A DNA stretch of 64,000 nucleotides from Sphingomonadaceae bacterium (lineage in GTDB: Bacteria > Pseudomonadota > Alphaproteobacteria > Sphingomonadales > Sphingomonadaceae). Where the stretch lies: positions 124,001-188,000 of the forward strand of contig JAFAZF010000058.1 in the NCBI GenBank assembly GCA_019239915.1, read 5' to 3'. The notes under the pieces are model-generated. The model was not told where the DNA came from. It was given only the letters and a program-made list of their open reading frames with translations, and did no database searches. The position numbers were made by a program, and so were the translations under genes. Below, piece by piece: positions 2,679 to 36,758 of the stretch (position 1 is the stretch's first letter; the number at the start of each line of letters is the position of its first letter).

Positions 2679-5600
2679 ATGCTTTCGCGCTTCTTCATCG
2701 AACGGCCGATCTTCGCCTGGGTGATCGCGATCGCGCTGATGCTCATCGGCATCGGCTCGATCCGCAGCCTTGCGATCGAGCAATATCCCGACGTCGCGCC
2801 GCCGACGATCGGCATCAGCGCGACCTATCCCGGCGCATCGGCGCAGACCGTCGCGGACAGCGTCACCCAGGTGATCGAGCAGCAGCTCACCGGCCTCGAT
2901 CACATGCTCTACTTCCAGTCGACCTCGAGCTCGAATGGCGCGGTGTCGATCACGGTGACCTTCGCGAACGGGACCAACCCCGACATCGCGCAGGTCCAGG
3001 TCCAGAACAAGGTCCAGCAGGCGCTGCCGCGGCTGCCGCAGGAGGTGCAGCAGCAGGGCGTCACGGTGCGCAAGCGCCAGACCGACTTCCTGATCATCGT
3101 CGGCCTGTTCGACGAAACCGATCATTCCACCTCGTCGGACATGTCCGACTATCTCGTCAGCCACTGGCAGGACCCGCTGGCGCGCGTGAACGGGGTCGGC
3201 GACTTCCAGATCGCCGGCGCGCAATATGCGATGCGGATCTGGCTCGATCCGTTCAAGCTCAGCTCCTACAATCTCATGCCGGGCGACGTGATCAGCGCCG
3301 TCCAGGCACAGAACACGCAGATCTCCGCGGGCCAGGTCGGCGGTCTGCCTGCCGTCCCCGGACTGCAGATGACGGCGACGGTGAGCGCGCTGTCCCGTCT
3401 CAACACGCCGGACCAGTTCCGCGCGATCGTGCTCAAGACGCTGCCGAACGGATCGCAGGTGCGCCTCGGCGATGTCGCCAACGTCGCGCTGGGCGAGGAG
3501 AGCTACGTCTCCGAGGCGCTGTGGAACGGCCATCCCGCCACGGGCATGCTGATCTATCTCGCGCCCGGCGCAGACGCGCTCAAGACCTCGAACGCGGTCA
3601 AGGCGGAGGTCGAGAAGCTCGCGCGAGATCTGCCGGCGGGCTACAAAATCTGCTACCCGCGCGACTCCACGGCGTTCATCAAGCTCTCGATCGAAGAGGT
3701 CGAGAAGACGCTCGTCGAGGCGATGATCCTCGTCGTCATCGTCATGTTTGTCTTCTTGCAGAGCTGGCGGGCGACACTCGTGCCGGCGATCGCGATCCCG
3801 GTGGTGCTGCTCGGCACGTTCGGCGCGCTTGCGCTCGCCGGCTTCTCGATCAACACGCTTACCCTGTTCGGCATGGTGCTCGCGATCGGGCTGCTCGTCG
3901 ACGACGCGATCGTCGTAGTCGAGAACGTCGAGCGCCTCATGGACGAGGAGGGGCTGAGCCCGCATGATGCGACGGTGCGGTCGATGGGCGAGATCACGCC
4001 CGCGCTCGTCGGTATCGCGATGGTGCTCTCGGCGGTGTTCCTGCCGATGGCCTTCTTCGGCGGCTCGACCGGGACGATCTATCGGCAGTTCTCGATTACC
4101 CTCGTCTCCTCGATGGTGCTCTCGGTGCTGGTCGCGATCATCCTGTCGCCGGCACTGACCGCAGCGCTGTTCAAGGCCAAGCATCGGGAGGATGGGGAGA
4201 CCGAGCAATCGGGCGCCAAGGGCGTGCTCGCGCGCTTTTCGGACCGCTTCAACAGCGGCTTCCACCGCATGACCGACCGCTATGTCGATCTCGTCAAGAC
4301 GGTGATCGCGCGCACCTGGCTGTTCATGCTGATCTTCGCCGGCGTCGTCGCGCTGCTCCTGCTGCTGTTCGTGCGGCTGCCGACGAGCTTCCTCCCGACT
4401 GAGGACAATGGCAGTTTCATCGTGCAGTTCACGCTGCCGCCGGGCGCGACGCGCGAGCGCACGGAGAAGGTCGCGCTGGCGGTCGAGCAATATTTCACGA
4501 GGCAGGAGAAGAACCTCTCGGGCATCTTCACCGCCGCTGGCCAGAGCTTCTTCGGCGCCGGGCAGAATGCCGGCCAGGCGTTTGCGATGCTCAAGGACTG
4601 GAGCGAGCGCCACGGCAAGCAGAACTACGCCGCCGCGATCACGCAGCGCGCCACCAAGGCGCTCTCCGGCGTGCGCGACGCGCAGATCTTCGCGCTGCAG
4701 CCGCCGCCGATCAACGGCCTCGGCCAATCGAACGGCTTCACGATGGAGCTGCTCAACAACGGCGGCCTCAGCACCACCGCGTTCAATGCCGCGAAGGACA
4801 AGCTGCTCGCCGCCGGCGCGGCGGATCCCAAGCTTAGCGCCGTCCGCCTCAACGGCCTCGACGACCAGCCCGCCTTCAGCCTCAACATCGACGAGCAGAA
4901 GCTGGGCGCGCTCGGCCTCGCCGCGGCCGACGTCAACACCACGCTCGATGCCGCGTTTGGCGGCGTCTACGTCAACGACTTCATCGATCGCGGCCGTGTC
5001 AAGCGCGTCTTCGTGCAGGGCGACGCGCCCTATCGCGCGCAGCCGCAGGACATCGACAAATGGTATGTCCGGTCGTCCGCCGGCACGATGACGCCGTTCT
5101 CGGCCTTCTCGACCTCGTCGTGGACGCGCCAGCCGGTGTCGGTCTCGCGCTTCAATGCGGTGCCGTCGTTCGAGATCCAGGGCCAGGCGGCGCCCGGCCA
5201 GAGCTCGGGCGCAGCGATGGAGGAGATCACCAGGCTCGCACAGCAGATCCCCGGCGTCGGCGTCGACTGGAGCGGTCTCTCCTACCAGGAGCGCCAGTCC
5301 ACCGGCCAGGCGCCGATGCTCTACGGCATCTCGGTGCTCGTCGTCTTCCTGTGCCTGGCGGCGCTCTACGAAAGCTGGTCGATCCCGATCTCGGTGCTGC
5401 TCGTGATTCCGCTCGGCGTGCTCGGCGCCGTGCTCGCGGTGATGCTGCGCGGGCTCGACAACGACATCTATTTCCAGGTCGGCCTGCTCACGACGATCGG
5501 GCTTTCCGCGAAGAACGCGATCCTGATCGTCGAATTCGCGGAGGTCGCCGAACGCGAGGGCAAGCGCCCCGTCGATGCCGCGCTGCAGGCGGCGCGGCTC

Positions 5601-5855
5601 CGGCTGCGGCCGATCCTGATGACCAGCCTCGCCTTCGTGGCGGGCGTGATCCCGCTCGCGATCGCGACGGGCGCCGGCGCGCAGAGCCGTGTCGCGATCG
5701 GTACTGCGGTCGTCGGCGGGATGCTGACCGCGACCGTGCTCGCGATCTTCTTCGTGCCGATGTTCTTCGTGCTCGTGCGCAGCCTGTTCAAGCGGCGGCA
5801 CGATCATGACGAGCATGAGGATGGCGAGGACGCGCATCCGCAGGAGGCGCAATGA
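2679..5855 (+). CDS. RND multidrug efflux permease, HAE1/AcrB type
   Basis: A 1058-residue proton-driven inner-membrane drug exporter. It starts with the family signature MLSRFFIERPIFAWVIAIAL and has the AcrB arrangement of twelve membrane helices with two large periplasmic loops. The proton-relay pair sits in helix 4 as GLLVDDAIVVVENVER. The second half repeats the fold, with an AKNAILIVEFA segment in the helix-10/11 area. The C-terminus is short and charged (HDHDEHEDGEDAHP). It lies between the adaptor gene and the outer membrane factor, whose start codon overlaps its stop, so all three are one operon. Substrates cannot be inferred. Confidence 0.96.
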   Translation: MLSRFFIERPIFAWVIAIALMLIGIGSIRSLAIEQYPDVAPPTIGISATYPGASAQTVADSVTQVIEQQLTGLDHMLYFQSTSSSNGAVSITVTFANGTNPDIAQVQVQNKVQQALPRLPQEVQQQGVTVRKRQTDFLIIVGLFDETDHSTSSDMSDYLVSHWQDPLARVNGVGDFQIAGAQYAMRIWLDPFKLSSYNLMPGDVISAVQAQNTQISAGQVGGLPAVPGLQMTATVSALSRLNTPDQFRAIVLKTLPNGSQVRLGDVANVALGEESYVSEALWNGHPATGMLIYLAPGADALKTSNAVKAEVEKLARDLPAGYKICYPRDSTAFIKLSIEEVEKTLVEAMILVVIVMFVFLQSWRATLVPAIAIPVVLLGTFGALALAGFSINTLTLFGMVLAIGLLVDDAIVVVENVERLMDEEGLSPHDATVRSMGEITPALVGIAMVLSAVFLPMAFFGGSTGTIYRQFSITLVSSMVLSVLVAIILSPALTAALFKAKHREDGETEQSGAKGVLARFSDRFNSGFHRMTDRYVDLVKTVIARTWLFMLIFAGVVALLLLLFVRLPTSFLPTEDNGSFIVQFTLPPGATRERTEKVALAVEQYFTRQEKNLSGIFTAAGQSFFGAGQNAGQAFAMLKDWSERHGKQNYAAAITQRATKALSGVRDAQIFALQPPPINGLGQSNGFTMELLNNGGLSTTAFNAAKDKLLAAGAADPKLSAVRLNGLDDQPAFSLNIDEQKLGALGLAAADVNTTLDAAFGGVYVNDFIDRGRVKRVFVQGDAPYRAQPQDIDKWYVRSSAGTMTPFSAFSTSSWTRQPVSVSRFNAVPSFEIQGQAAPGQSSGAAMEEITRLAQQIPGVGVDWSGLSYQERQSTGQAPMLYGISVLVVFLCLAALYESWSIPISVLLVIPLGVLGAVLAVMLRGLDNDIYFQVGLLTTIGLSAKNAILIVEFAEVAEREGKRPVDAALQAARLRLRPILMTSLAFVAGVIPLAIATGAGAQSRVAIGTAVVGGMLTATVLAIFFVPMFFVLVRSLFKRRHDHDEHEDGEDAHPQEAQ

Positions 5856-7396
5856 TGGCGCGGCGGGCCGTCGCCCGGCTCCCGCTTGCGCTGGCGATGC
5901 TGGCGGCGCTCGCCGGCTGCGACCTCGCGCCGCATTATGCGCGGCCGGGGGCGCCCGTCCCGCCCAAGTTCCCGAGCGACGGCGCCTACCAGAAGGCGAT
6001 CGAGAGCCAGCCGCCGCCGGCGAGCGTCGACTGGCACCAGCTCTTCACCGATCCCAAGCTCGCCCAGGTGATCGAGCTCGCGCTCGCCAACGGCCGCGAT
6101 CTGCGCATCGCTGCCGCCAACGTCGCCGCCGCGCGCGCGACCTATCGCGTCCAGCGCTCCGATCTCTTCCCCGAGATCGACGCCGGTGCTGTCGCGCGGA
6201 TCGCGCATTCGAACAACGGCGAGAGCAGCGCGACGGCGGTCAGCGGCACCGGCGCCGGCACGACCGGCTCCGGCGCGGGCAGCGGCGCCGGATCGGGCAC
6301 CGGCAACGGCACCGGCGGCTCCAGCGGCACCGGCACGGGCACCACCGCCGTCGCGACTGGCGGCGGCACCAGCCATTATTACTCGCTCGATCTCGGCATC
6401 GCGAGCTACGAGATCGATCTGTTCGGCCGCGTCCGCAACCTGACCAAATCCGCATTCGAGCAGTATCTCGCGACCGACGCGGGTGCGCGCGCCACCAAGC
6501 TGACGCTGATCGGCGAGACCGCGGCGGCCTGGTACACCTTCGCCGCCGATCGCAGCGTGCTCGAGGTCGCGCAGCAGACGCTCAAGGCGAGCCAGGCGAG
6601 TGCCGAGGTCTCGCGCCAGCGGTTCGAGGGCGGCATTGCCTCCGAGCTCGATCTGCAATCGACGCTAACGCTCGTCGAGCAGGCGCAGTCCGATATCGCC
6701 GCCGACATGAGTCAGGTCGCGCAGGACAAGAACGCGCTCGACCTGCTCGTCGGCGCGCCGGTGAGCGACGACCTGCTGCCGGTCGACATCGATCATGTCA
6801 CGCTGCCGGTCGAGCTGCCCTCGGGGTTGTCATCGACGATCCTGCTCAGGCGCCCGGACGTCGTCGAGGCCGAGCACCAGCTGATCGCCGCCAATGCGCG
6901 GATCGGCGCGGCGCGCGCCGCCTTCTTCCCGCGGATCAGCCTGACGACGGCGGCGGGGCTGGCGAGCGGCGGTCTCTCGAGCCTGTTCACCGGCCACGCC
7001 TTCAACTGGTCGGTCGAACCGTCGGCGACGCTGCCGATCTTCGATGGCGGTGCCAATGCCGGCAACCTCGCTTATGCCAAGGCCGAGCGGAAGCTCTACC
7101 TCGCGCAATATGAGCAGGCGGTCCAGACCGCGTTCCGCGAGGTCGCCGACGCGCTCGCCCGCCGCGGCACGATTGACGCGCAACTCGCCGCGCAGCAGGC
7201 GCTCACCAATTCGGCGAGACTCAGCCTCAACCTCGCGCAAGCGCGCTACCAGGGCGGCATCGATCCCTACCTCAACTATCTCGATGCCGAGCGCACGCTC
7301 TACACCGCGCAGCAATCGCTCGCCGCGACCAAGCTCATCCAGGCGGAGAACCTCGTGACGCTCTACCGCGTGCTCGGCGGCGACCAGAATTTCTAA
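5852..7396 (+). CDS. RND efflux outer membrane factor, NodT/OprM-type lipoprotein
   Basis: The TolC-like channel of the efflux operon, 514 residues, starting in an ATGA overlap with the pump gene. It has a lipobox (LAALAGC), the family start PHYARPGAPVP, and two repeated helical halves ending in the ARYQGGIDPYLNYLDAERTLY motif common to NodT-type proteins. An unusual insertion of about 50 residues made almost only of Gly, Ser, Thr and Ala lies near residues 130-180, where the first extracellular beta-hairpin is expected, before the SHYYSLDLGIASYEIDLFG strand. The family usually has a short loop there. The rest is a standard length, so function is probably retained. Confidence 0.93.
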   Translation: MMARRAVARLPLALAMLAALAGCDLAPHYARPGAPVPPKFPSDGAYQKAIESQPPPASVDWHQLFTDPKLAQVIELALANGRDLRIAAANVAAARATYRVQRSDLFPEIDAGAVARIAHSNNGESSATAVSGTGAGTTGSGAGSGAGSGTGNGTGGSSGTGTGTTAVATGGGTSHYYSLDLGIASYEIDLFGRVRNLTKSAFEQYLATDAGARATKLTLIGETAAAWYTFAADRSVLEVAQQTLKASQASAEVSRQRFEGGIASELDLQSTLTLVEQAQSDIAADMSQVAQDKNALDLLVGAPVSDDLLPVDIDHVTLPVELPSGLSSTILLRRPDVVEAEHQLIAANARIGAARAAFFPRISLTTAAGLASGGLSSLFTGHAFNWSVEPSATLPIFDGGANAGNLAYAKAERKLYLAQYEQAVQTAFREVADALARRGTIDAQLAAQQALTNSARLSLNLAQARYQGGIDPYLNYLDAERTLYTAQQSLAATKLIQAENLVTLYRVLGGDQNF

Positions 7397-14390: not shown

Positions 14391-14476
14391 GGAAGGGTGG
14401 CCGAGTGGTTAAAGGCAGCAGACTGTAAATCTGCCCGCGCGAGCGTACGCTGGTTCGAATCCAGCCCCTTCCACCA
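14391..14476 (+). tRNA. tRNA-Tyr (GTA)
   Basis: An 86-nt tRNA with encoded CCA. The acceptor stem pairs GGAAGGG with CCCTTCC, the anticodon stem pairs GCAGA with TCTGC around loop CTGTAAA (anticodon GTA at 14425-14427), a long variable arm follows, and the T-arm is TGGTTCGAATCCA. The 3' 56 bases are repeated at 36703-36758, showing it is the attachment site of the integrative element. The element's end restores these bases, so the tRNA stays intact. Confidence 0.96.
14421..14476 (+). repeat. attL, 56-bp direct repeat within tRNA-Tyr
   Basis: Identical over 56 bases to 36703-36758. It runs from the base before the anticodon loop, through the variable arm and T-arm, to the encoded CCA. The bases just outside differ between the two copies, which defines the ends of the repeat. 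Confidence 0.95.
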
Positions 14477-14481
14477 GCGGC

Positions 14482-15711
14482 CTAAGCCGCTGTTTTGCCG
14501 CTGATAATGCCGACGATCCGCCGATCGTCCGGCTGCTCCGGATCGGCCGGCGTGTGTAGTTCTGGTGTAAGTGTGCCAGGAAAAGGCGTGTTCAGCGCCT
14601 CGATCGCGTTGTCGATGTGGACACCGTGGACGTGGGTGTAGTGCAGCACCATCCCCACCGTCTTGTGACCGCTAATGCGTTGGATCGTCGGAATGTCGGT
14701 GCCGGCCTGGACCAGCCGCGTGATAGCGGTGTGGCGCATCACGTGCGGCGTCACCTTCTGTGGATCGAGCTTGGCCCGTGCAACGGCGCGCTCGAATGGG
14801 ATCCGCATATCTCTCCGGTATGGCAGCTTCGCCCGCCTGTGGGCGGGGAAGACGTACCCGTTCGGATCATCCTCCGTCTCGCGCTGGTGCTTCAACGCCT
14901 CGGCTAGCGCTGGCGTGATCGGCTGCTCGCGCTCGCCGGCCTTGGCCTTGTTGATCCAAATCCGGCGTGTCGCGAAGTCGATCTCGTCATAGCGAACGCG
15001 GACGATCTCGCTGTGCCGCATCGCCGCGCCCAGGCCGAAGGCAACGAATAGCCAAAGCCGGCCATCCTGATCCTGAATCGCTGCTTTCATCAGCGCGTCG
15101 CTCTGCTGCTGGGTCAGCACGCGAATCTGTTTCCGGGCCTCGCGCGGCTTCTCGATCTTCGGCACCTTATCGCCCGGCAGCCACTTCCATTCGACCGCCC
15201 GGTTGAACAGGTGCATCAGGGTCGAGAACTCGCGGTTCACCGTCGCGTCGGTCGCGCCCGAATCGCGGCGCTTCTTCCGGTATTGAAGCAGCGCAAAGTC
15301 CTTGAGCTGATCGAGCCGCTGCGAGCCGAAAACCGGAACGAGATGCTGTTCGAGATGCCGGCGCTTGTTGGCCATGTCCTTGCCGCCGGTCTCCTCCAGC
15401 CGCTTGAGATAGTCCGACGCTGCCTCCTTGAAGCTGCGGTGCAGCTTGCGGCCTTGGGGCAAATCAAGCCGCCCTGCCCTTGCCTCCGTACGGAACTTCT
15501 CGATAGCGCGCTCGGCCTGTTCGCGGGTGACGCCCTCGCTGTCGCGGCCGATGACGCGGTGGACCCGCTGGCCATCGACCATGATGTTGACGCTGTAGCG
15601 GATGTCACCGCTCGCTAGCCGCTCGGCGATGATGCCGTGCTCAGCGAGCTTCTGGCCGAGCTCTAGGGCGCGGACGGCAGGCCGGGTGAGCTTGGTGAAG
15701 CGGAGGCTCAC
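14482..15711 (-). CDS. int: Tyrosine recombinase / integrase
   Basis: A 409-residue phage-type integrase ending six bases from attL. It has an N-terminal DUF4102-like or arm-binding region, a core-binding SAM-like domain (about 110-200, KDMANKRRHLEQHLVPVFG) and a catalytic domain. Catalytic residues are visible: Arg in GLGAAMRHSEIVRVR, His-x-x-Arg in HVMRHTAITRL, His in ISGHKTVGM and the nucleophile Tyr in VLHYTHVH. It starts in an ATGA overlap with the upstream RHH gene, so integrase synthesis is coupled to that protein. It should recombine the tRNA-Tyr 3' end. Confidence 0.95.
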   Translation of the reverse strand: MSLRFTKLTRPAVRALELGQKLAEHGIIAERLASGDIRYSVNIMVDGQRVHRVIGRDSEGVTREQAERAIEKFRTEARAGRLDLPQGRKLHRSFKEAASDYLKRLEETGGKDMANKRRHLEQHLVPVFGSQRLDQLKDFALLQYRKKRRDSGATDATVNREFSTLMHLFNRAVEWKWLPGDKVPKIEKPREARKQIRVLTQQQSDALMKAAIQDQDGRLWLFVAFGLGAAMRHSEIVRVRYDEIDFATRRIWINKAKAGEREQPITPALAEALKHQRETEDDPNGYVFPAHRRAKLPYRRDMRIPFERAVARAKLDPQKVTPHVMRHTAITRLVQAGTDIPTIQRISGHKTVGMVLHYTHVHGVHIDNAIEALNTPFPGTLTPELHTPADPEQPDDRRIVGIISGKTAA

Positions 15712-16484
15712 TCAGGGCTCCCCACAAAGGTAGCGAAGCGACCACTTTCGATTGCTCGCTCCGCAGCGGCTACACCTTCGCGCTGAGCACGGACCGCGCC
15801 AGTGATAGTCTCATCGATCGCAGCTTCTGCGGCGCTGAGCTGGCGAAGCAAGGCACTTCGGCGCTCCCAAAGTTGACGATGTTCGTCATCATCGAACTTC
15901 AGGCCGCCTATCGCCGAAAGCAATAGATTTTGCCCACTTACGCTTCGTGCTGGCGGCATCACGCCAGCAGTCCGAAGATCATCCTCAACTGATTGCAAAT
16001 CCTGTTCGATTTTTGAGCGCTCGCGCTCTGCTTCAAGGATGGCTGGCTCATTCGGCATGGGCGGACGTCGAAGCGCCATTAGCTGAGGGATGCCCTCGAG
16101 GAGACTTCTTCTAACGGCGTGATACGCGACGTAGCTCTCATGCCACGCCGCGCCTGCTTCGGTTTCTGCATCTTCGATCAGAGAAAGGAGCCGTCGGAGC
16201 AACGAAGCCGAAGCCGATCCGCCCAACAGCCGCTCATCATCAAATGAGCGTTCGAGTCGTTGCTCGATCTCCTGAGTAATCGACCGGCCGCGAGCATCTG
16301 CCGCCGCCTTAAGCATGGCCTTGATTGTTGGTGTTGTCCTGACAGCGACGGCTGCACGCTTCGCTTCGTCGCGCTCAGAGGGCCGCCCACCGCGCCGAAC
16401 AGCGCCCGTTTCCTCACTCTGCACAGCCAACATTCCCGAACCGTCCATAAGATACCGCAACGTATGCATCGCATGATCTTGCAA
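15708..16484 (-). CDS. Ribbon-helix-helix DNA-binding protein with coiled-coil C-terminus
   Basis: This 258-residue protein is translated just before the integrase. Residues about 45-85 (AAVAVRTTPTIKAMLKAAAD then GRSITQEIEQRLERSF) look like an Arc/MetJ-type ribbon-helix-helix domain. The remainder is alpha-helical and Glu/Arg-rich, with likely coiled coils around ILEAERERSKIEQDLQSVEDD. RHH proteins beside integrases often act as recombination directionality or repressor proteins. The start could be one of several internal ATGs in the first 20 codons. It is divergent from the AlpA-like gene over a 70-base gap with an inverted repeat. Confidence 0.65.
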   Translation of the reverse strand: MQDHAMHTLRYLMDGSGMLAVQSEETGAVRRGGRPSERDEAKRAAVAVRTTPTIKAMLKAAADARGRSITQEIEQRLERSFDDERLLGGSASASLLRRLLSLIEDAETEAGAAWHESYVAYHAVRRSLLEGIPQLMALRRPPMPNEPAILEAERERSKIEQDLQSVEDDLRTAGVMPPARSVSGQNLLLSAIGGLKFDDDEHRQLWERRSALLRQLSAAEAAIDETITGAVRAQREGVAAAERAIESGRFATFVGSPE

Positions 16485-17344: not shown

Positions 17345-17550
17345 CGGTCGCGGCCTTCCCGCCGATGCGCGCATGGCGCGTAGTCGAGGTGCAGCCGTCG
17401 CTCTATCGCGCCGAGCTGCACGAGCGCGGACGCGGCGTGATCTACGCTACCGGCATCGCCAGTTGGCCGCGCATTCACCGCTTCCTGCGGTGTGCCCGTG
17501 GCGGCCTGCCCGTCTCCTTCAAGGAGCTTAGGCGGAGGGCGAGGCCATGA
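17341..17550 (+). CDS. Small element protein, unknown (69 residues)
   Basis: It starts with GTG in a GTGA overlap and ends in an ATGA overlap with the primase gene. Basic overall. Strands such as WRVVEVQPSLYRAELHERG and GVIYATGIASWPRI suggest a small beta-rich domain. Translational coupling to the primase suggests a replication-accessory role, but no motif confirms it. Confidence 0.5.
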   Translation: MTVAAFPPMRAWRVVEVQPSLYRAELHERGRGVIYATGIASWPRIHRFLRCARGGLPVSFKELRRRARP

Positions 17551-18554
17551 GCGGCTTTCGCGATCGCCGCCACGCGCCGCCGCGCCTCAGCGATGACGAG
17601 TTCCGCCGGCTCTGCGACGACGCGAAGGCGCAGGTCGCCTTGTCCTCCATCATCAGCCGCCACACCGATCTCAAGAAGCGTGGCGGGCACGAGATGAAGG
17701 GCATTTGCCCATTCCACAGCGAGAAGAGCCCAAGCTTGGAGGTGAACGACGCCAAGGGCACTTATCATTGTTGGGGCTGTGGCGCTGCCGGCGATCACTT
17801 CACGGCGCTGATCAAGCTCGACGGGTTGACCTTCCGCCGCGCGTTCGAGGCGCTGACCAACGATACCTTCCCGGCCGTCGACCCGGGCGAGCGCGCGCGG
17901 CGAGCAGCGGAAGACGAGGCGGAGCGGTTGGCCGCGATCGAGGATGCGCGCACTTTCTGGGCGGCTGCCAGCGACATCTACGGCACGCCTGCTGAAACCT
18001 ATCTACGCGGTGCGCGCGGCATCGTCGCCAACCTGCCTGCCTCGATGCGCTTCGGCATGGTGCCAGCCGCGAAGGATGACGCCGGCCGCTGGAAGCGCCC
18101 TTTTCCAGCGCTGTTGTGCGCGGTCACGATCGGCGAAGAGCTGAGCGCGATTCAGCGGGTGTTCCTGCGCGACGACGGCTGCGACAAGCGCTGGGGCAAG
18201 AAGTCGAAGCTGACCATCGGCCGCTTCCGTGGCGGCGCGGTGAAGATGGGCTCTCGTCGTCCCGATCCCGCTGAGCTTGTAATCGCCGAGGGGCCGGAAG
18301 ACGCCCTCAGCCTCGCGCAAGAGCTGCCAGAGCTGGAAGTCTGGGCTGCGCTCGGCACCGCCAACATGCCACTGCTCGTGCTGCCGCCATCGGTGCAGCG
18401 TGTAACGATCGCCGGCCAGAATGACGCCGCCGGTCGCGCTGCGGTCGATGCGGCATCGCGGGCGCTAATCGACCGTGGGCTCGACGTGCGAACGATGTGG
18501 CCCCCCGAACGCTTCAAAGATTTCAACGACGCCTTGTGCGGGAGGCGTCCATGA
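17547..18554 (+). CDS. DNA primase-like protein (CHC2 zinc finger and Toprim domains)
   Basis: A 335-residue primase that would make RNA primers for element replication. The zinc finger is complete: Cys-x2-His in GICPFHSEKSPS and Cys-x2-Cys in YHCWGCGAAGDH. A Toprim domain follows, with the glutamate motif in LVIAEGPEDALSL. The second acidic motif is altered: the usual Asp-x-Asp is read as AGQNDAAGR, retaining one Asp. It is shorter than DnaG and lacks the DnaB-binding C-terminal domain, as is common in phage and plasmid primases. It overlaps the DUF3987 gene by 4 bases. Confidence 0.85.
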   Translation: MSGFRDRRHAPPRLSDDEFRRLCDDAKAQVALSSIISRHTDLKKRGGHEMKGICPFHSEKSPSLEVNDAKGTYHCWGCGAAGDHFTALIKLDGLTFRRAFEALTNDTFPAVDPGERARRAAEDEAERLAAIEDARTFWAAASDIYGTPAETYLRGARGIVANLPASMRFGMVPAAKDDAGRWKRPFPALLCAVTIGEELSAIQRVFLRDDGCDKRWGKKSKLTIGRFRGGAVKMGSRRPDPAELVIAEGPEDALSLAQELPELEVWAALGTANMPLLVLPPSVQRVTIAGQNDAAGRAAVDAASRALIDRGLDVRTMWPPERFKDFNDALCGRRP

Positions 18555-20053
18555 CGGTCGCCCCGATACGCGCGAGCTTCGACAGCGCACAGCCGGGCGC
18601 GGACGGTTGGCTGCCGCCCGACATGCACGTTCTGAACGCCGGCCGCGTGAGTCCGCCGAAGATGCCATCCGATATCTTCGGAGTGCTCTGGCCAATCATC
18701 TCCGACCTGGCCGAAGGAGCGGGCGCACCTGTCGATTACGTCGGCGTCAGCGTCCTCGCCGTCGCGGCCTCGCTGATCGGTGCCAAACGGCGCGTGCAGC
18801 CGTTCACGACATCGCCGCAATGGCAGGAGCCCTGCATCCTGTGGATTGCCCTGGTCGGCGATCCGTCGTCGCACAAATCGCCAGCGATCGATACCGCGAC
18901 GGCCGGACTGCGCCCGCTAGAGCGAGAATTCGCGGAAGATCACAAGATCGTCCTGCAGGGGCACGAGACGCTCGTCGAGCGCGCGAAGGCCGAGCGCGTG
19001 CATTGGCAGGAGGCGGTGAAGGCGGCCACGAAGGAGGGCCTGGGCACGCCGCACATGCCGGATGCGGCGACCGCGCCCGACGAGCCGGTGCGCAAGCGCG
19101 CGATGGTCCAGGACGCCACGCCTGAAGCGTTGGGCGAGATCCTTTCGGGCAACCACAATGGCGTGCTCCATCTCCGCGACGAGCTGTCTGGCTGGCTGCA
19201 GTCATTCGAGCGCTATGCGCCTGGCGGTCGGGAATTCTGGCTGGAAGCCTATGGCGGCCGGCCGCATGTGATCGACCGCAAGAGCCTGAAAGCGCCGCTC
19301 GCGATCCCCTACAATGGTGTCTGCGTGCTTGGCGGCATCCAGCCGGAGAAGCTCGCCGATACGCTGCTGAGCGTCGCCGACGACGGCTTGGTCGCTCGTT
19401 TCCTGTGGGCATGGCCGAACGCGGTCCCGTATCACCGGCCGCGCGCGGTCGCGGATGCCGATCGGCTGGAACGCGCATATCGGCGCCTCGGGCGGCTGGA
19501 TGGCGACGCGGCGAAGCCGACCGTGCTGCTGCTGGCTCCGATCGCGAGCGACATTTTCGAAGCCTGGGTCGCGGAGAACGTCGCTTTGATCGAGGACGCC
19601 GCATCTCTCTTCAAAGGTTTCTGCGGCAAGCTGCATGGTGCCGCGCTCCGGTTGGCTCTCGTCGCTGAGCTGCTCGGCTGGGCGGCGGGCGGCGTCGAAG
19701 ACGATCCGACAGAGATCAGTGCCGCGTCAATCACTGCGGCTATCAACTTTATCGAGGGCTACGCCGAGCCCACCGCGCTGCGCGTCTTCGGCGACGCGGC
19801 GCTGCCGCCTGCCGAACGCAATGCGGCAATGCTAGCCCGGCATATTCAGAAAAACCGCCTGCGGCAGATCAACGCGCGCGATGTTCGGCGTAGCTCCGGC
19901 ATCCCGACTCTCCGTCAGCCGCTAGCCGTAGATGATGCAATCGAGGCGCTGATCGAAGCGAATTGGCTCCGATCGATCGGCGGTGGCACGGTCGGTCGCC
20001 CCGGCAAGGACTATGCTGTCAATCCCGCGTTGCACGGCGGCGCCGATGCGTAG
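18551..20053 (+). CDS. DUF3987 protein, helicase/primase-associated
   Basis: A 500-residue DUF3987 (YfjI-type) protein, a family found next to primases in prophages and plasmids and thought to act in replication initiation. A P-loop is seen as LVGDPSSHKSPA, with His in the place where most members have Gly. Other conserved parts are the GVLHLRDELSGWLQSF motif (Walker-B-like with Asp-Glu) and VLGGIQPEKLADTLL with its sensor-type position. The C-terminal part has a winged-helix-like segment (INARDVRRSSGIPTLR). It is translationally coupled to the primase and lies just left of the iteron-like repeats. Confidence 0.8.
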   Translation: MTVAPIRASFDSAQPGADGWLPPDMHVLNAGRVSPPKMPSDIFGVLWPIISDLAEGAGAPVDYVGVSVLAVAASLIGAKRRVQPFTTSPQWQEPCILWIALVGDPSSHKSPAIDTATAGLRPLEREFAEDHKIVLQGHETLVERAKAERVHWQEAVKAATKEGLGTPHMPDAATAPDEPVRKRAMVQDATPEALGEILSGNHNGVLHLRDELSGWLQSFERYAPGGREFWLEAYGGRPHVIDRKSLKAPLAIPYNGVCVLGGIQPEKLADTLLSVADDGLVARFLWAWPNAVPYHRPRAVADADRLERAYRRLGRLDGDAAKPTVLLLAPIASDIFEAWVAENVALIEDAASLFKGFCGKLHGAALRLALVAELLGWAAGGVEDDPTEISAASITAAINFIEGYAEPTALRVFGDAALPPAERNAAMLARHIQKNRLRQINARDVRRSSGIPTLRQPLAVDDAIEALIEANWLRSIGGGTVGRPGKDYAVNPALHGGADA

Positions 20054-20501
20054 CTGGCGCGAGATCGCTGCGGAGGCGCTCGGCGAGCCGCATAATACGA
20101 GCGCTTTGCGGGCAACCGTGCCGGACACGCATGGACTGCCGGACGCCGTTCGGCGCGATCTGGAGCGGCTAGAATATCTGCCCCCGCCACGCATCGACAA
20201 CCCAAAGCTTTGGCCTCCGATCGTGGCCGACGCGCTTCGGTTGGCACGCGATGGCTGGGCTGAGCGGGCGCTCGCTCTCGGCTGGTCGATCAACGACCTG
20301 TTCGGCGTCGTCCATGACGGGATCGGCTACAGCGATTGTCTCGCTACGGCGCTGCGCGGCCGCCGCGTCATCATGATCGACGCGGATGTCGCCGTGATCG
20401 CCGGCAGCGACGGTAAGGCCACCCTCTTCAGTCGGGGTAGGCACGATCACACTGGCGAGCAGATCATGCCGCTGTGGCAGTTCGGAAGGGCAGAACGGTG
20501 A
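20046..20501 (+). CDS. Element protein of unknown function (151 residues)
   Basis: It starts 8 bases inside the DUF3987 gene. The sequence is mainly helical at the N-terminus (WREIAAEALGEPH), with a central segment (LALGWSINDLFGVVHDGIGY) that resembles the 'LGWSxxELFG' motif often seen in small phage proteins encoded after primase genes, and a beta-rich end (RVIMIDADVAVIAGS). Probably replication-associated; no catalytic residues are recognised. Confidence 0.65.
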   Translation: MRSWREIAAEALGEPHNTSALRATVPDTHGLPDAVRRDLERLEYLPPPRIDNPKLWPPIVADALRLARDGWAERALALGWSINDLFGVVHDGIGYSDCLATALRGRRVIMIDADVAVIAGSDGKATLFSRGRHDHTGEQIMPLWQFGRAER

Positions 20502-20758
20502 GTTTTGGCAATTTTGACATTTTGGCAACGGCACACCGCGCGCCTACGCGAGAGTTTTGGCAACAATGGCAAAAGGGCACTTTGGGAAAAAAGAGAACTA
20601 TTCTCTCTCTCCTGACGGACGGAGTGCTGGTGATCCGGAGAGACGTCGGGTGCCACGTGCCAAAATTGCCAAAATGCCAAAACTCGGCGCGCGCCGCTGC
20701 CGCCGCAAAAGCGGGCTTGATGACGCGATGCCGTTTGACGAACAGAGGAGGTATTTAA
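20498..20758 (+). CDS. Doubtful 86-residue ORF containing the iteron-like repeats
   Basis: It starts GTG in a GTGA overlap with the previous gene and runs to the base before the DUF5681 start. Its DNA is dominated by repeated TTTTGGCAA units, so the protein (FGNFDILAT, HVPKLPKCQ) may be a by-product of a cis-acting site. The overlap favours translation; codon use does not. Confidence 0.35.
   Translation: MSFGNFDILATAHRAPTREFWQQWQKGTLGKKRTILSLLTDGVLVIRRDVGCHVPKLPKCQNSARAAAAAKAGLMTRCRLTNRGGI
20503..20682. repeat. Iteron-like cluster, candidate element replication origin
   Basis: TTTTGGCAA occurs at 20503-20511, 20520-20528 and 20555-20563. Three inverted copies ((T)TGCCAAAA) follow in tandem at 20658-20665, 20666-20674 and 20675-20682. 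Between the two groups lie an A-rich run and a perfect dyad AGAGAA-CTA-TTCTCT at 20592-20606. The cluster sits directly after the primase and DUF3987 genes and is more AT-rich than the flanks. This matches an iteron-type origin, or else a repressor-binding region. Confidence 0.6.
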
Positions 20759-20759
20759 G

Positions 20760-21173
20760 ATGGCCGATGACGAGGACCGCGACGAGGTGAGTTGCGGTGA
20801 TGATACTCCGCCGAAAACAGGTCTGCGTCCGGCATGGGCGCCAGGCCAGTCCGGCAACCCCGCCGGCCGCCCCCGCGGCGCGCGCAACAAGCTCGGCGAG
20901 GCGTTCATCGCCGACGTCTTGGCAGACTGGCAGCAGCATGGCCCGGCCGTGATCGCGCGGGTGCGCACCGAGCGGCCGGCCATCTACCTGCGGGTTATTG
21001 CGTCGATCCTGCCGCGCGAGTTGAACGTGCGGACCAATGAGCTTGATGAACTCACTGACGAGCAGCTGGAGACGCGGCTGCGGGCGCAACTGCGCGCCCT
21101 GGCGGCGGCAGGCGGCGATCTGTTCGAAGATGGCGACGCTGCGATCGTCGTCGGGTCAGAGACGGTGCAGTGA
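20760..21173 (+). CDS. DUF5681 domain protein
   Basis: A 137-residue protein with the DUF5681 signature WAPGQSGNPAGRPRGARNKL near residue 25, followed by a helical region (FIADVLADWQQHG, YLRVIASILPREL) and an acidic C-terminus. In phages this family usually lies just before the terminase genes and may be a small-terminase-like DNA-binding protein. Here no large terminase follows; an FkbM methyltransferase does. A GAGGAGG site precedes the ATG at 20760. Confidence 0.8.
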   Translation: MADDEDRDEVSCGDDTPPKTGLRPAWAPGQSGNPAGRPRGARNKLGEAFIADVLADWQQHGPAVIARVRTERPAIYLRVIASILPRELNVRTNELDELTDEQLETRLRAQLRALAAAGGDLFEDGDAAIVVGSETVQ

Positions 21174-21351
21174 GGCTGCAAGCGCTGCATTTGCTTGGAC
21201 GCTTTTAGCGATCCCGAACCCGCGGGCGGGCATAGTCATACTGAAAGGTGAGCTCCGTAGGTTGAGTTTGCGACCCATGCCTCAGCTGTTTAAGGGGTGT
21301 CGCGTTTTTGGCGGGTCAAGTGCCGCATTTCCGCGCGTCCTCTGGAGCAAC

Positions 21352-22227
21352 ATGGTAATGAGCATTTCAATCTTTCCACCGAAACGATTTACTGGCTCCG
21401 ACCTGTTTGACCTCGCTGACCTAATAAACCCCAACCGTTTGCAGAATGAGGCGCATATTCGAGCCTTGTGCGATGCCTCCTATGTGGGTGAAAACACAAG
21501 TGTCTGCCGCGTGCTCGGTCGATACAAGATGTACGTGGATACGACTGATGTTGGCATTGCTCCGCACCTGATGCTTGACGGGTATTGGGAGATGTGGGTT
21601 ACGGAAATACTTGCTTCCTTGACTAGGCCAGGAATGGTAGTTGCCGATGTCGGAGCTAACGTCGGTTACTTCACGCTTTTAATGGCCGATATTTGTGGTC
21701 CCTCTGGCAGGGTTTTTGCATTTGAACCAAACCCTAGAATTGCCGAGCTTCTTCAGCGGACCGTAACTTTGAACGGCTTTTGGCCGTGGGTGAGCATACA
21801 CACTGATCCGCTCTCCGATGTAGATGGAGCAAGCGTCGACCTAATCGTTCCAGTGAACGACCCAAAGAATGCGCATATTGTCTCATCGCCTGAGGGCCAG
21901 GGGCAGGGCATTCCCGTAGTTACACAGCGCTTCGACTCAAAAGAGGTTTTTAGAACTGTCGAAATGGCTAAGATCGACGTTGAGGGCGCAGAGGAGGCGG
22001 TTTGGCGTGGTATGACGGCTATGCTAAACGGATCAGCTCTAAAAACGGTTGTTATAGAATTTGCTGCAGCTCGTTATATCGACCCAGAAGGCTTCCTTTC
22101 GGAGTTAACATCGCACGGCTTTGCCATGTCCTATATAAGCTTCAAACATGGCATTCGAAATACGAACATAAAGAGTGTTCTACAACAAAATCCTCTTGAG
22201 GACATAATGTTACTTTTGCGAAGGTAG
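21352..22227 (+). CDS. FkbM-family SAM-dependent methyltransferase
   Basis: A 291-residue methyltransferase. The SAM-binding motif is clear in MVVADVGANVGYFTLLMA, with the acidic ribose-binding residue in RVFAFEPNPR and the later KIDVEGAEE motif typical of FkbM enzymes, which O-methylate sugars or small metabolites. The ATG at 21352 has a GGAG site; the frame is open further upstream without matching the family. The gene and its flanks are clearly more AT-rich than the rest of the element, and codon choice differs. It sits exactly where terminase and capsid genes would be expected, so it looks like late-acquired cargo. Host surface glycan modification is a plausible role. Confidence 0.82.
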   Translation: MVMSISIFPPKRFTGSDLFDLADLINPNRLQNEAHIRALCDASYVGENTSVCRVLGRYKMYVDTTDVGIAPHLMLDGYWEMWVTEILASLTRPGMVVADVGANVGYFTLLMADICGPSGRVFAFEPNPRIAELLQRTVTLNGFWPWVSIHTDPLSDVDGASVDLIVPVNDPKNAHIVSSPEGQGQGIPVVTQRFDSKEVFRTVEMAKIDVEGAEEAVWRGMTAMLNGSALKTVVIEFAAARYIDPEGFLSELTSHGFAMSYISFKHGIRNTNIKSVLQQNPLEDIMLLLRR

Positions 22228-22478: not shown

Positions 22479-22628
22479 ATGCGAACTGCGGTTCACGACC
22501 GGGTTGCCCGGTTTCGCGTAAGCGGACAGCTTCTCGAACAGGCTGAGGCCAAAGCCCGCTCGCAAGGAATGTCTGTCCCGGAGCTTCTCCGCCACGCGCT
22601 GCGCCGCGAATTGGCTGACGCCGCGTGA
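22479..22628 (+). CDS. Small ribbon-helix-helix protein (49 residues)
   Basis: Reading from the ATG at 22479 gives a short protein whose core (ARFRVSGQLLEQAEAKARSQ then GMSVPELLRHALRREL) fits a CopG/Arc-type ribbon-helix-helix: one strand and two helices with a Ser-Val-Pro turn. It overlaps the next start (GTGA). It begins the ejection-cassette operon and may regulate it. About 250 bases upstream hold no gene. Confidence 0.6.
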   Translation: MRTAVHDRVARFRVSGQLLEQAEAKARSQGMSVPELLRHALRRELADAA

Positions 22629-23604: not shown

Positions 23605-24050
23605 CCGCGCAGCCCGAGCCGTTCGCGCCCTTTCTGGAGGAAGTGAAGCCGCTGCTCCCGCTCCATTGGGACGAGCTGGCGCTGAACAAGGACATGGTGC
23701 CGCTGTCGCCGCAATACGAGGAGTATCTGCGCCGCGACAGCATCGGCATGGTCATGACGGTCACGCTGCGCGCTGCCGGCGCGCGCGTCGGCTACTTCGT
23801 CGGGTTCGTGGCCCCCGGGCTCCACTACTCGACCTGCCTGACGCTGCACCTCGATATCTTCTGGCTGCACCCCGAGCAGCGCGGAAAAATGGGTGGCGTG
23901 AAGCTGTTCCGCGCGGTCGAGGCCGAAGCGAAGCGCCGCGGCGTCCAGCGCATCTTCGTCGGCTCCAAGATCCATCGGGATGCGTCCCGGCTGTTCGAGC
24001 GTCTCGGCTATGCGGAAGTCGAGCGCACATTCTCCAAAATGGTGGCTTGA
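23598..24050 (+). CDS. GNAT-family N-acetyltransferase
   Basis: A 150-residue acetyl-CoA-dependent acetyltransferase. The acetyl-CoA-binding region is seen as IFWLHPEQRGKMGGVKLFRA, close to the usual Q/R-x-x-G-x-G/A pattern, with the preceding beta-strand (LTLHLDIFWL) and the C-terminal SRLFERLGYAEVE motif typical of GNAT proteins. It overlaps the hydroxylase-like gene by 7 bases and lies one base before the first ejection protein gene. Small GNAT genes at this position are frequent in podovirus-like prophages; substrates are unknown. Confidence 0.78.
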   Translation: MLTAQPEPFAPFLEEVKPLLPLHWDELALNKDMVPLSPQYEEYLRRDSIGMVMTVTLRAAGARVGYFVGFVAPGLHYSTCLTLHLDIFWLHPEQRGKMGGVKLFRAVEAEAKRRGVQRIFVGSKIHRDASRLFERLGYAEVERTFSKMVA

Positions 24051-24051
24051 T

Positions 24052-24801
24052 ATGGTGGGCGTAGCAGTCGGGGCGGGAACGGCGCTGATCGGCGGCGTGG
24101 TGCAGTCGAGCGCGGCCAGCGACGCGGCGGACGCGCAGGTGCAGGCGGCCAACGCGGCGGCCGGCGTCCAGCAGAACATGTACAATCAGACCCGCGCGGA
24201 TCTGCTGCCTTACCAGCAGTATGGTCAAACGGGCGGCATCAACCAGCTGCAGGCTATGTCGGGCTATCTCAACACGCCGTTCTCGATGACGCAGTCGCAG
24301 CTGGAGCAGACGCCAGGCTACCAGTTCGACCTGTCTCAGGGTCTGAAGTCGGTGAACAACCAGCTCGGCGCACGTGGTCTGCTCAACAGCGGCGCTGTCA
24401 TGAAGGGCGCCGCAAATTACGCTACTGGCTTGGCGGACAACACCTACCAGAATCAATTTAACATGGACCAGACGCAGAAGACTAACATCTATAATCGTCT
24501 CGCTGGTATCGCGACGCTTGGCGAAGATGCGGCGGCTAAGACCGGGGCTGCCGGCATTCAGACGTCTGGTGTGCAGTCACAAGCGCTCACCAATGCGGGC
24601 AACGCGGCTGCGACCGGCGCCATCAACTCCGGCAATGCCTACAACAACGCGTTCCAGGGCGTCAGCAATTCGCTGCTCGCTCGAACGAACCCGTTCTCAG
24701 CTGGCGTCTACGGGGGTGGTTTCTCGCTGCCCTCAAGCTTCGGCGGCGGCTCGCCGATCGACAGCAGCTATTACTATAACCCTGACTACACCTACGGCTG
24801 A
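24052..24801 (+). CDS. Phage DNA-ejection (transfer) protein, P22 gp7-like
   Basis: A 249-residue Ala/Gly/Gln-rich protein. It opens with a glycine-rich hydrophobic segment (VAVGAGTALIGGVVQSSAA) that could enter a membrane. It then shows the pattern found in many podovirus internal proteins: YNQTRADLLPYQQYG, LGARGLLNSGAVMKGAANYA, and NQFNMDQTQKTNIYNRLAG. Such proteins leave the virion with the DNA and build a channel through the cell envelope. It is the first of three consecutive ejection-type genes. The assignment rests on these patterns, not on a search. Confidence 0.68.
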   Translation: MVGVAVGAGTALIGGVVQSSAASDAADAQVQAANAAAGVQQNMYNQTRADLLPYQQYGQTGGINQLQAMSGYLNTPFSMTQSQLEQTPGYQFDLSQGLKSVNNQLGARGLLNSGAVMKGAANYATGLADNTYQNQFNMDQTQKTNIYNRLAGIATLGEDAAAKTGAAGIQTSGVQSQALTNAGNAAATGAINSGNAYNNAFQGVSNSLLARTNPFSAGVYGGGFSLPSSFGGGSPIDSSYYYNPDYTYG

Positions 24802-36195: not shown

Positions 36196-36232
36196 AACCC
36201 CGGTCGCGCGTCTCGCCGGCCGGGGTTTCTTT
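36196..36232 (+). terminator. Rho-independent terminator
   Basis: AACCCCGG and CCGGGGTT form an 8-bp stem around a 16-base GC-rich loop, followed by TCTTTATC. It lies 170 bases after the secreted-protein gene and before the last small gene of the element. Confidence 0.55.
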
Positions 36233-36702: not shown

Positions 36703-36758
36703 GACTGTAAATCTGCCCGCGCGAGCGTACGCTGGTTCGAATCCAGCCCCTTCCACCA
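36703..36758 (+). repeat. attR, 56-bp direct repeat of tRNA-Tyr 3' part
   Basis: Perfect copy of 14421-14476, covering the tRNA anticodon loop to the CCA. It lacks the tRNA 5' half, so it is not a functional gene. It defines the right end of the element. A few GTTCC/GGAAC motifs just to its left (36606-36690) could be integrase arm sites. Confidence 0.95.

Follow-up and report, generated by a model that had tools for sequence, protein, structure and literature searches.

Opposed arrays of short repeats beside a DUF3987 gene in a sphingomonad integrated element: a candidate replication origin

The integrated element and its genes

The window, that is, the whole 64-kb stretch of DNA analysed here, contains a 56-bp exact repeat of the 3' part of tRNA-Tyr at both ends of an integrated virus-like element of ~22.3 kb. 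The gene order inside this element is integrase, primase, DUF3987, an ORF of ~150 codons, the repeat array, and then a gene coding for a DUF5681 protein. The coordinates of the main features are collected in Table 1. Genes for the large terminase, the portal and the capsid were not identified in the subset of element ORFs that was scanned; the data suggest that the 22.3-kb element is a satellite or a remnant. A DNA-ejection protein is encoded in the element (window positions 23980-24801), and a methyltransferase-like frame (21037-22227; phrog_8156, E 1.8e-25), possibly a cargo gene, is located just past the array region.

The ~150-codon ORF is kept in the Sphingomonas-type relatives of the element, shows a conserved GW...DLFG core and has matches at E < 1e-3 in 18 of 142 loci, two duplicate pairs counted. 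It has no Pfam or PHROG match, and its structural model (pLDDT 81.6, 11 sequences) gave no fold match, the best E being 0.35.

Table 1. Features of the integrated element and of its repeat cluster (positions in the window)
Feature	Positions	Strand	Basis
Left attachment repeat, tRNA-Tyr 3' part, 56 bp	14421..14476	+	exact repeat search, tRNA
Tyrosine integrase	14482..15711	-	PF00589 E 1.4e-30
DnaG-type primase (zinc ribbon, DUF7146, Toprim_3)	17547..18554	+	
DUF3987 protein	18551..20053	+	PF13148 E 1.4e-57
~150-codon ORF, ATG 20046, stop 20501, start inferred	20046..20501	+	
Overlapping 94-aa reading frame, probably not a gene	20474..20758	+	
Left array, units TTTTGGCA, TTTTGACA, TTTTGGCA, 9 and 8 bp spacing	20503..20527	+	
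Extra direct unit TTTTGGCAA outside both arms	20555..20563	+	
AT-rich pocket, 30-mer GC 0.33, A6 run, overlaps 6-3-6 dyad	20579..20608	.	
Perfect 6-3-6 dyad AGAGAACTATTCTCT	20592-20606		
Right array, three inverted units TGCCAAAA, 9 and 8 bp spacing	20658..20682	-	
Right attachment repeat, exact 56-bp copy	36703..36758	+	exact repeat search

The repeat cluster in the window

The 8-mer TTTTGGCA is present six times in the window, in three direct and three inverted copies that all fall within positions 20503-20682, against 0.74 copies expected in the whole window. Six copies located anywhere were reached in 1 of 100 shuffles, a figure in which clustering is ignored. The exact 9-mer TTTTGGCAA has four copies (0.14 expected in 64 kb), three of them on the forward strand (20503, 20520 and 20555) and one on the reverse strand (20666-20674). 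A degenerate unit, TTTTGACA, can be read in the sequence at position 20512 of the left arm. Each arm is constituted by three units separated by 9 and 8 bp (20503, 20512 and 20520 on the left; 20658, 20667 and 20675 on the right), and the two arms face each other across a gap of ~130 bp.

A previous sequence-only reading had described this cluster, and its coordinates, the direct and inverted layout and the 6-3-6 dyad were all borne out on re-examination. Its count of six units, three direct and three inverted, holds for the 8-mer TTTTGGCA but not for the exact 9-mer, which has four copies. The statement that the cluster comes right after the DUF3987 gene has to be corrected, since the first unit is located 450 bp past the DUF3987 stop (20053) and the ~150-codon ORF intervenes.

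No 30-mer in the 600 bp flanking it on each side is as low in GC as the AT-rich pocket between the arms, which might be an unwinding element. The GC skew gives no clear origin signal at the array, its maximum being at 22548 and its minimum at 36217.

Opposed arrays beside DUF3987 genes in related elements

Relatives of the DUF3987 gene were drawn from viral contigs and genomes. Widening the set through viral contigs was unsuccessful, A1 being too divergent and none of four single queries yielding a relative. The array layout of the window is present near the gene in many DUF3987 relatives, but with other units, such as TTTTGGCAG, CTATTGTCA and TTGCTAAAG. In all eight Sphingomonas-type relatives (L003, L016-L021 and L033) opposed arrays were seen by eye at the same place as in the window, after the ~150-codon ORF. 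All eight passed the unit-count test and seven of them the strict detector, both of which are defined below. Their arms are composed of two or three units each, with the letters TTTTGGCAG, CTATTGTCA, CTATTGGCA and CTAATGGCA. Within each of these loci the units of the left and the right arm agree, whereas between elements the units differ. What is conserved is the architecture; the sequence of the unit varies by element.

The conservation of the repeats in related elements, which had been proposed as a check of the origin, is found in one respect and not in the other: the architecture recurs, fresh distant relatives included, but the letters of the units change. A protein reading kept while the repeats drift had been named as one refuting case, and the outcome was the opposite, since the opposed arrays recur and a search of 142 other loci for the 94-aa frame that overlaps them gave no relative (best E 0.95). 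The suggestion that this small ORF is a by-product gains support from the same comparison.

The strict detector looks for two tandem arrays of 3 x 9 bp, mutually inverted and within 260 bp. It found such pairs in 24 of 89 DUF3987 loci and in none of 267 shuffles; as the 89 loci hold three window copies and two duplicate pairs (L002/L016 and L005/L030), the distinct hits are 22. The three window copies, with their mixed 9/8 spacing, were missed at period 9 and found at period 8. Identical settings applied to fresh loci gave 8 hits in 56 loci and none in 168 shuffles, a set in which the hits L162 and L176 come from one genome and the members of each of the pairs L171/L182 and L178/L181 are fragments of a single place. 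When the period was scanned over loci L002-L089 (unflipped), paired arrays were found in 25 loci at period 9, in three at period 8, and in none at periods 6, 7, 10, 11, 12, 15, 18 or 21.

The looser unit-count test, in which a pass means that at most 2 of 40 shuffles were as good, was positive in 41 of 77 loci (window copy L053 and both L005 and L030 counted) and in 27 of 54 fresh loci, a number that counts both L178 and L181 and includes a few passes that are dispersed rather than arrayed. About half of the DUF3987 loci failed this test (36/77 and 27/54); some of the failures show 2+2 units by eye after the DUF3987 stop and others show nothing. Five or more copies of the unit are present in 23/77 and 15/54 loci; the corresponding numbers for upstream coding controls are 0 and 1. 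The commonest spacing between units of the same strand is 9 bp (78 of 127 and 39 of 86 cases), with 8 bp in 15 and 8 cases. No paired arrays were found in 31 loci of other helicase families (30 AAA_25 and one VapE-like), a weak control because many AAA_25 matches are probably host proteins such as RadA.

The position of the arrays is variable. In 30 of the 41 unit-count-positive loci the first unit lies between -57 and +115 bp from the DUF3987 stop; in the window and the eight Sphingomonas-type relatives it lies 445-468 bp past the stop, with one small ORF in between. Several other sphingomonads have their arrays at a shorter distance from each other and inside the first codons of a relative of the ~150-codon ORF. 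Arrays located after the ORF in some elements and inside its first codons in others indicate a DNA pattern that persists although its place and its coding role shift. In L022, L028 and L030 the repeat-coded stretch is an insert placed before a shared core and is missing in the other 8 of the 11 aligned relatives of the ORF. Translation of the arrays of L005, L022, L023 and L028 yields peptide repeats (DNRDNRDNR, NVPNVPNVP) close to the N-terminus of a hypothetical protein. With respect to the primase, arrays were found together with a separate DnaG-type enzyme (the window), a fused Prim-Pol (L062, L080, L035 and L013) and a fused Toprim (L068). Since the type of primase varies among array-bearing loci, the constant partner is DUF3987.

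Orientation was compared with spacer length in 30 hand-picked loci, 16 of which could be scored. Units pointing inwards, with gaps of 69-140, were present in 11 loci; units pointing outwards were present in four loci with gaps of 17-20 and in L005 with a gap of 125, probably due to a mis-paired arm.

The pocket observed in the window recurs in most long-spacer loci. Of 13 such loci, the window included, 11 have a spacer 30-mer with GC below any other within 600 bp on each side, although 9 of these 13 belong to the Sphingomonas-type group and are hence non-independent; the result was 9/9 on the long-spacer loci first chosen and became 11/13 after adding four more. The pockets of L013 and L061 are unexceptional, with 75 and 33 of 1142 flank 30-mers equally low. 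The low-GC spacers of long-spacer loci often carry (ATCT)n. In the 22 short-spacer loci listed, the DNA between the arms is not AT-rich as a class. In L020 (~5999-6160) the AT-rich tract has the opposite orientation from that in the rest of the Sphingomonas-type loci, as though a flip of the spacer between the inverted arms had taken place.

The DUF3987 protein as a predicted helicase

The structural model of the window DUF3987 protein, obtained with a 44-sequence alignment, has a pLDDT of 92.2 and a pTM of 0.89. A Foldseek search with this model placed MCM subunits on top and the SCCmec protein Cch (5dgk) at rank 4 (E 1.7e-4), and its structural alignment to the archaeal MCM 6mii covers 266 residues (Z 18.2, rmsd 3.4). 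The protein models as an MCM-like AAA+ helicase with an AAA+ core of the MCM type, in which the motif GDPSSHKS reads as the Walker A. The N-terminal domain of MCM proteins is absent, only ~42 residues preceding the aligned core. The end of the model (residues 419-489) consists of helix-strand-helix-helix-strand-strand and is probably a winged helix, a call that is based on secondary structure because the structural alignment tests only residues 43-417 well. A fold similar to that of Cch is predicted for DUF3987, yet the DUF3987 profile matched no chain among the PDB sequences up to E 10.

That DUF3987 is a helicase of mobile elements had been predicted earlier (PMC5862659). In the PICMI satellite model PF13148 (DUF3987) is listed with DUF5906 under primase, and the deletion of the primase gene of PICMI115 (DUF3987 or DUF5906) led to fewer circular copies (PMC10803314).

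Which protein may read the units

The similarity of the units was compared with the divergence of the proteins, and all the correlations given here are inflated by shared ancestry. In 43 loci, rho was 0.57 for the DUF3987 C-terminus and 0.52 for the ATPase core, and the partial correlations were 0.285 and 0.086, respectively. When DUF3987 was divided into 12 segments, residues 441-499 were the best beyond the rest of the protein, with a partial correlation of 0.172 in the 43 loci (1/300 permutations) and of 0.235 with the 29 automatic units only (0/300 permutations). The next segments were 121-180 (0.107 in the 43 loci and 0.229 with automatic units), 401-460 (0.114 and 0.204) and 321-380 (0.118 and 0.078).

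Unit similarity tracks no segment of DUF3987 in 22 Sphingomonas-type loci. In 16 of these the primase gave a rho of 0.48 (p 0.001), the ATPase core 0.38 (p 0.002) and the C-terminus 0.22 (p 0.03). From our reading of the matrix, the lead of the primase is chiefly due to the window, L003 and L016, which share TTTTGGC units and a distinct primase; this combination may represent one event. The broad set points to the DUF3987 C-terminus and the Sphingomonas set to the primase, and the C-terminus is the favoured candidate for the reader of the units.

A candidate replication origin

Short repeats located beside an initiator and around an AT-rich pocket are the look of many origins. The opposed arrays at 20503-20682 are probably the replication origin of the element, read by DUF3987 (or by the primase), and the candidate origin proposed in the sequence-only reading is in this way supported on anatomy and analogy. 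The steps from binding and loading to melting and replication, as well as the identity of the reader, are inferred as follows. Each array would be a set of iterons at ~9 bp, bound by an initiator encoded in the element, most likely the winged-helix C-terminus of the MCM-like DUF3987 protein, perhaps plus the primase. Two helicase assemblies would load, one per arm, the DNA would be opened at the AT-rich pocket between the arms, and after excision of the element the neighbouring primase would begin synthesis.

Several known systems resemble this arrangement. The alpha protein of the satellite P4 is a primase-helicase whose C-terminus reads short iterons (ori and crr), but it belongs to another helicase class, and the sequence and spacing of its iterons differ from those of the DUF3987 case. 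According to PMC7581432, the C-terminal domain of the SCCmec protein Cch2 binds a repeat region that lies immediately after its own gene and SaPI Rep does likewise; the likeness lies in the short repeats beside an initiator-helicase gene and in the presence of a primase. Clustered short repeats beyond chance, as in the SaPI Rep/Cch2 type, are found here as well. However, the helicase is here DUF3987, with its MCM-like model and a predicted binding, the spacing is mostly of 9 bp with two opposed arms, the units differ by element, and the arrays are sometimes inside coding sequence. In the PLE satellite, the element-encoded RepA_N binds a repeat needed for satellite replication, but its iterons are semi-palindromic direct repeats and this initiator family is unrelated to DUF3987 (PMC7145576). 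Keyword searches of the open-access literature in PMC, where DUF3987 is mentioned in 10 papers, found no description of the arrays reported here.

If the origin reading is true, the little-studied mobile elements with a DUF3987 helicase would have an origin visible in the sequence. They would also offer a natural series of matched protein-DNA specificities, in which the spacing is constant and the letters change, and such a series would allow one to ask how an MCM-like helicase loads at a defined bacterial site. The odd peptide repeats with which some hypothetical proteins begin (NVPNVPNVP and others) would be origin DNA read through by a gene.

Head-to-head loading of MCM hexamers is the manner of eukaryotic and archaeal origins. 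More tentatively, DUF3987 (YfjI-type) origins in general could be opposed ~9-bp arrays that load MCM-like hexamers head to head, the unit and the reader domain co-evolving in such a way that the origin is private to each element; we regard this hypervariable code as conceivable, though short of probable. If it were true, sequence would suffice to read the origins of many prophages, satellites and plasmids that are as yet uncharacterised.

Alternative explanations

The arrays might instead be operators, by means of which a regulator of the element (DUF3987, the primase, or an Arc-like or AlpA-like protein) controls transcription of the downstream genes or of the replication module. This is unlikely in our judgement, although the arrays are located between gene blocks, regulators are encoded nearby, and iterons often double as control and initiation sites. 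No sigma-70-like promoter was found in 20000-21200, a scan that alphaproteobacterial promoters may escape, and in the short-spacer loci that were inspected the next ORF has the arrays in its first codons, or else they come shortly past the DUF3987 stop. Moreover, the gene beyond the array is inconstant: apart from the window copies, the DUF5681 protein was matched in L033 alone among the loci compared.

A partition or incompatibility site, rather than an initiation site, is improbable. Iterons and centromere sites look alike, the plasmids L121 and L122 encode ParA, and the Arc-like protein of the element (15708-16484) matches phrog_795, labelled as partition protein ATPase, over 48 residues (E 2.9e-6). 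However, this match probably runs via the ribbon-helix-helix part, the Pfam match of the protein to Arc is sub-threshold only, neither a full ParA nor a full ParB was identified in a scan of 11 element ORFs, and the arrays associate with a helicase gene.

There is slightly less to be said for a pairing of the arms as RNA, in which a long hairpin would serve as a terminator, an attenuator or a signal for processing. Folding of the 201-nt strand is better than that of its shuffles (z -3.96, 0/200), as is to be expected of any inverted repeat, but shuffling the order of the left-arm units in 27 loci gave a mean pairing of 23.64, as against 23.44 for the native order (8 better, 8 equal and 11 worse; p 0.33). 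This test, the lack of any Rfam match up to E 1 and the lack of a terminator-like site in the scan led to the rejection of the hairpin.

It is hardly credible that the repeats only encode a repetitive peptide, that of the 94-aa ORF, the DNA pattern being its by-product. Several short-spacer arrays do lie in coding sequence and give the peptide repeats mentioned above, and 9 bp equal three codons; nevertheless, the 94-aa ORF was rejected as coding for its lack of relatives, the repeat-coded stretch of three loci is an insert that the other eight relatives lack, arrays also occur outside the ~150-codon ORF, and the 8-bp spacing of the window breaks the frame. Just as implausible are arms that would be the terminal repeats of a small MITE-like insertion, for although GAGTTTTGGCA (20500 and 20552) and TGCCAAAACTC (20675-20685) are exact complements of each other, this candidate was rejected on its single match in the host genome assembly, where multiple copies would be expected, and the layout recurs near DUF3987 with different sequences and no target duplication was seen by eye.

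Arrays in plasmids and more distant elements

Arrays were also looked for on plasmids and in more distant elements. Sulfitobacter L122, in which an own RepA is present, has no array by eye, while the phage-plasmid L121 shows a 2+2 arrangement by eye beside DUF3987. Repeated 7-mers beside DUF3987 were seen, without shuffle comparison, in the plasmids L123, L124, L125 and L126. In loci L183-L190 the strict detector gave 0/8, the sequences of L183 and L184 stopping at the end of the DUF3987 gene, and no array was seen by eye in L185 or in L190 (the E. coli YfjI plasmid). Short arrays were seen by eye after DUF3987 in L186, L187, L188 and L189, which are a Bacteroides plasmid, the phages Javan191 and NatCom_43819, and an Alicyclobacillus plasmid. 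The arrays beyond the main set, in plasmids of Bacteroidota and Bacillota and in two phages, are taken as a lead only. In the Paracoccus plasmid pTAV4 (L125) the detector found four 3-unit arrays after DUF3987, at ~5554-5830, which form two opposed pairs.
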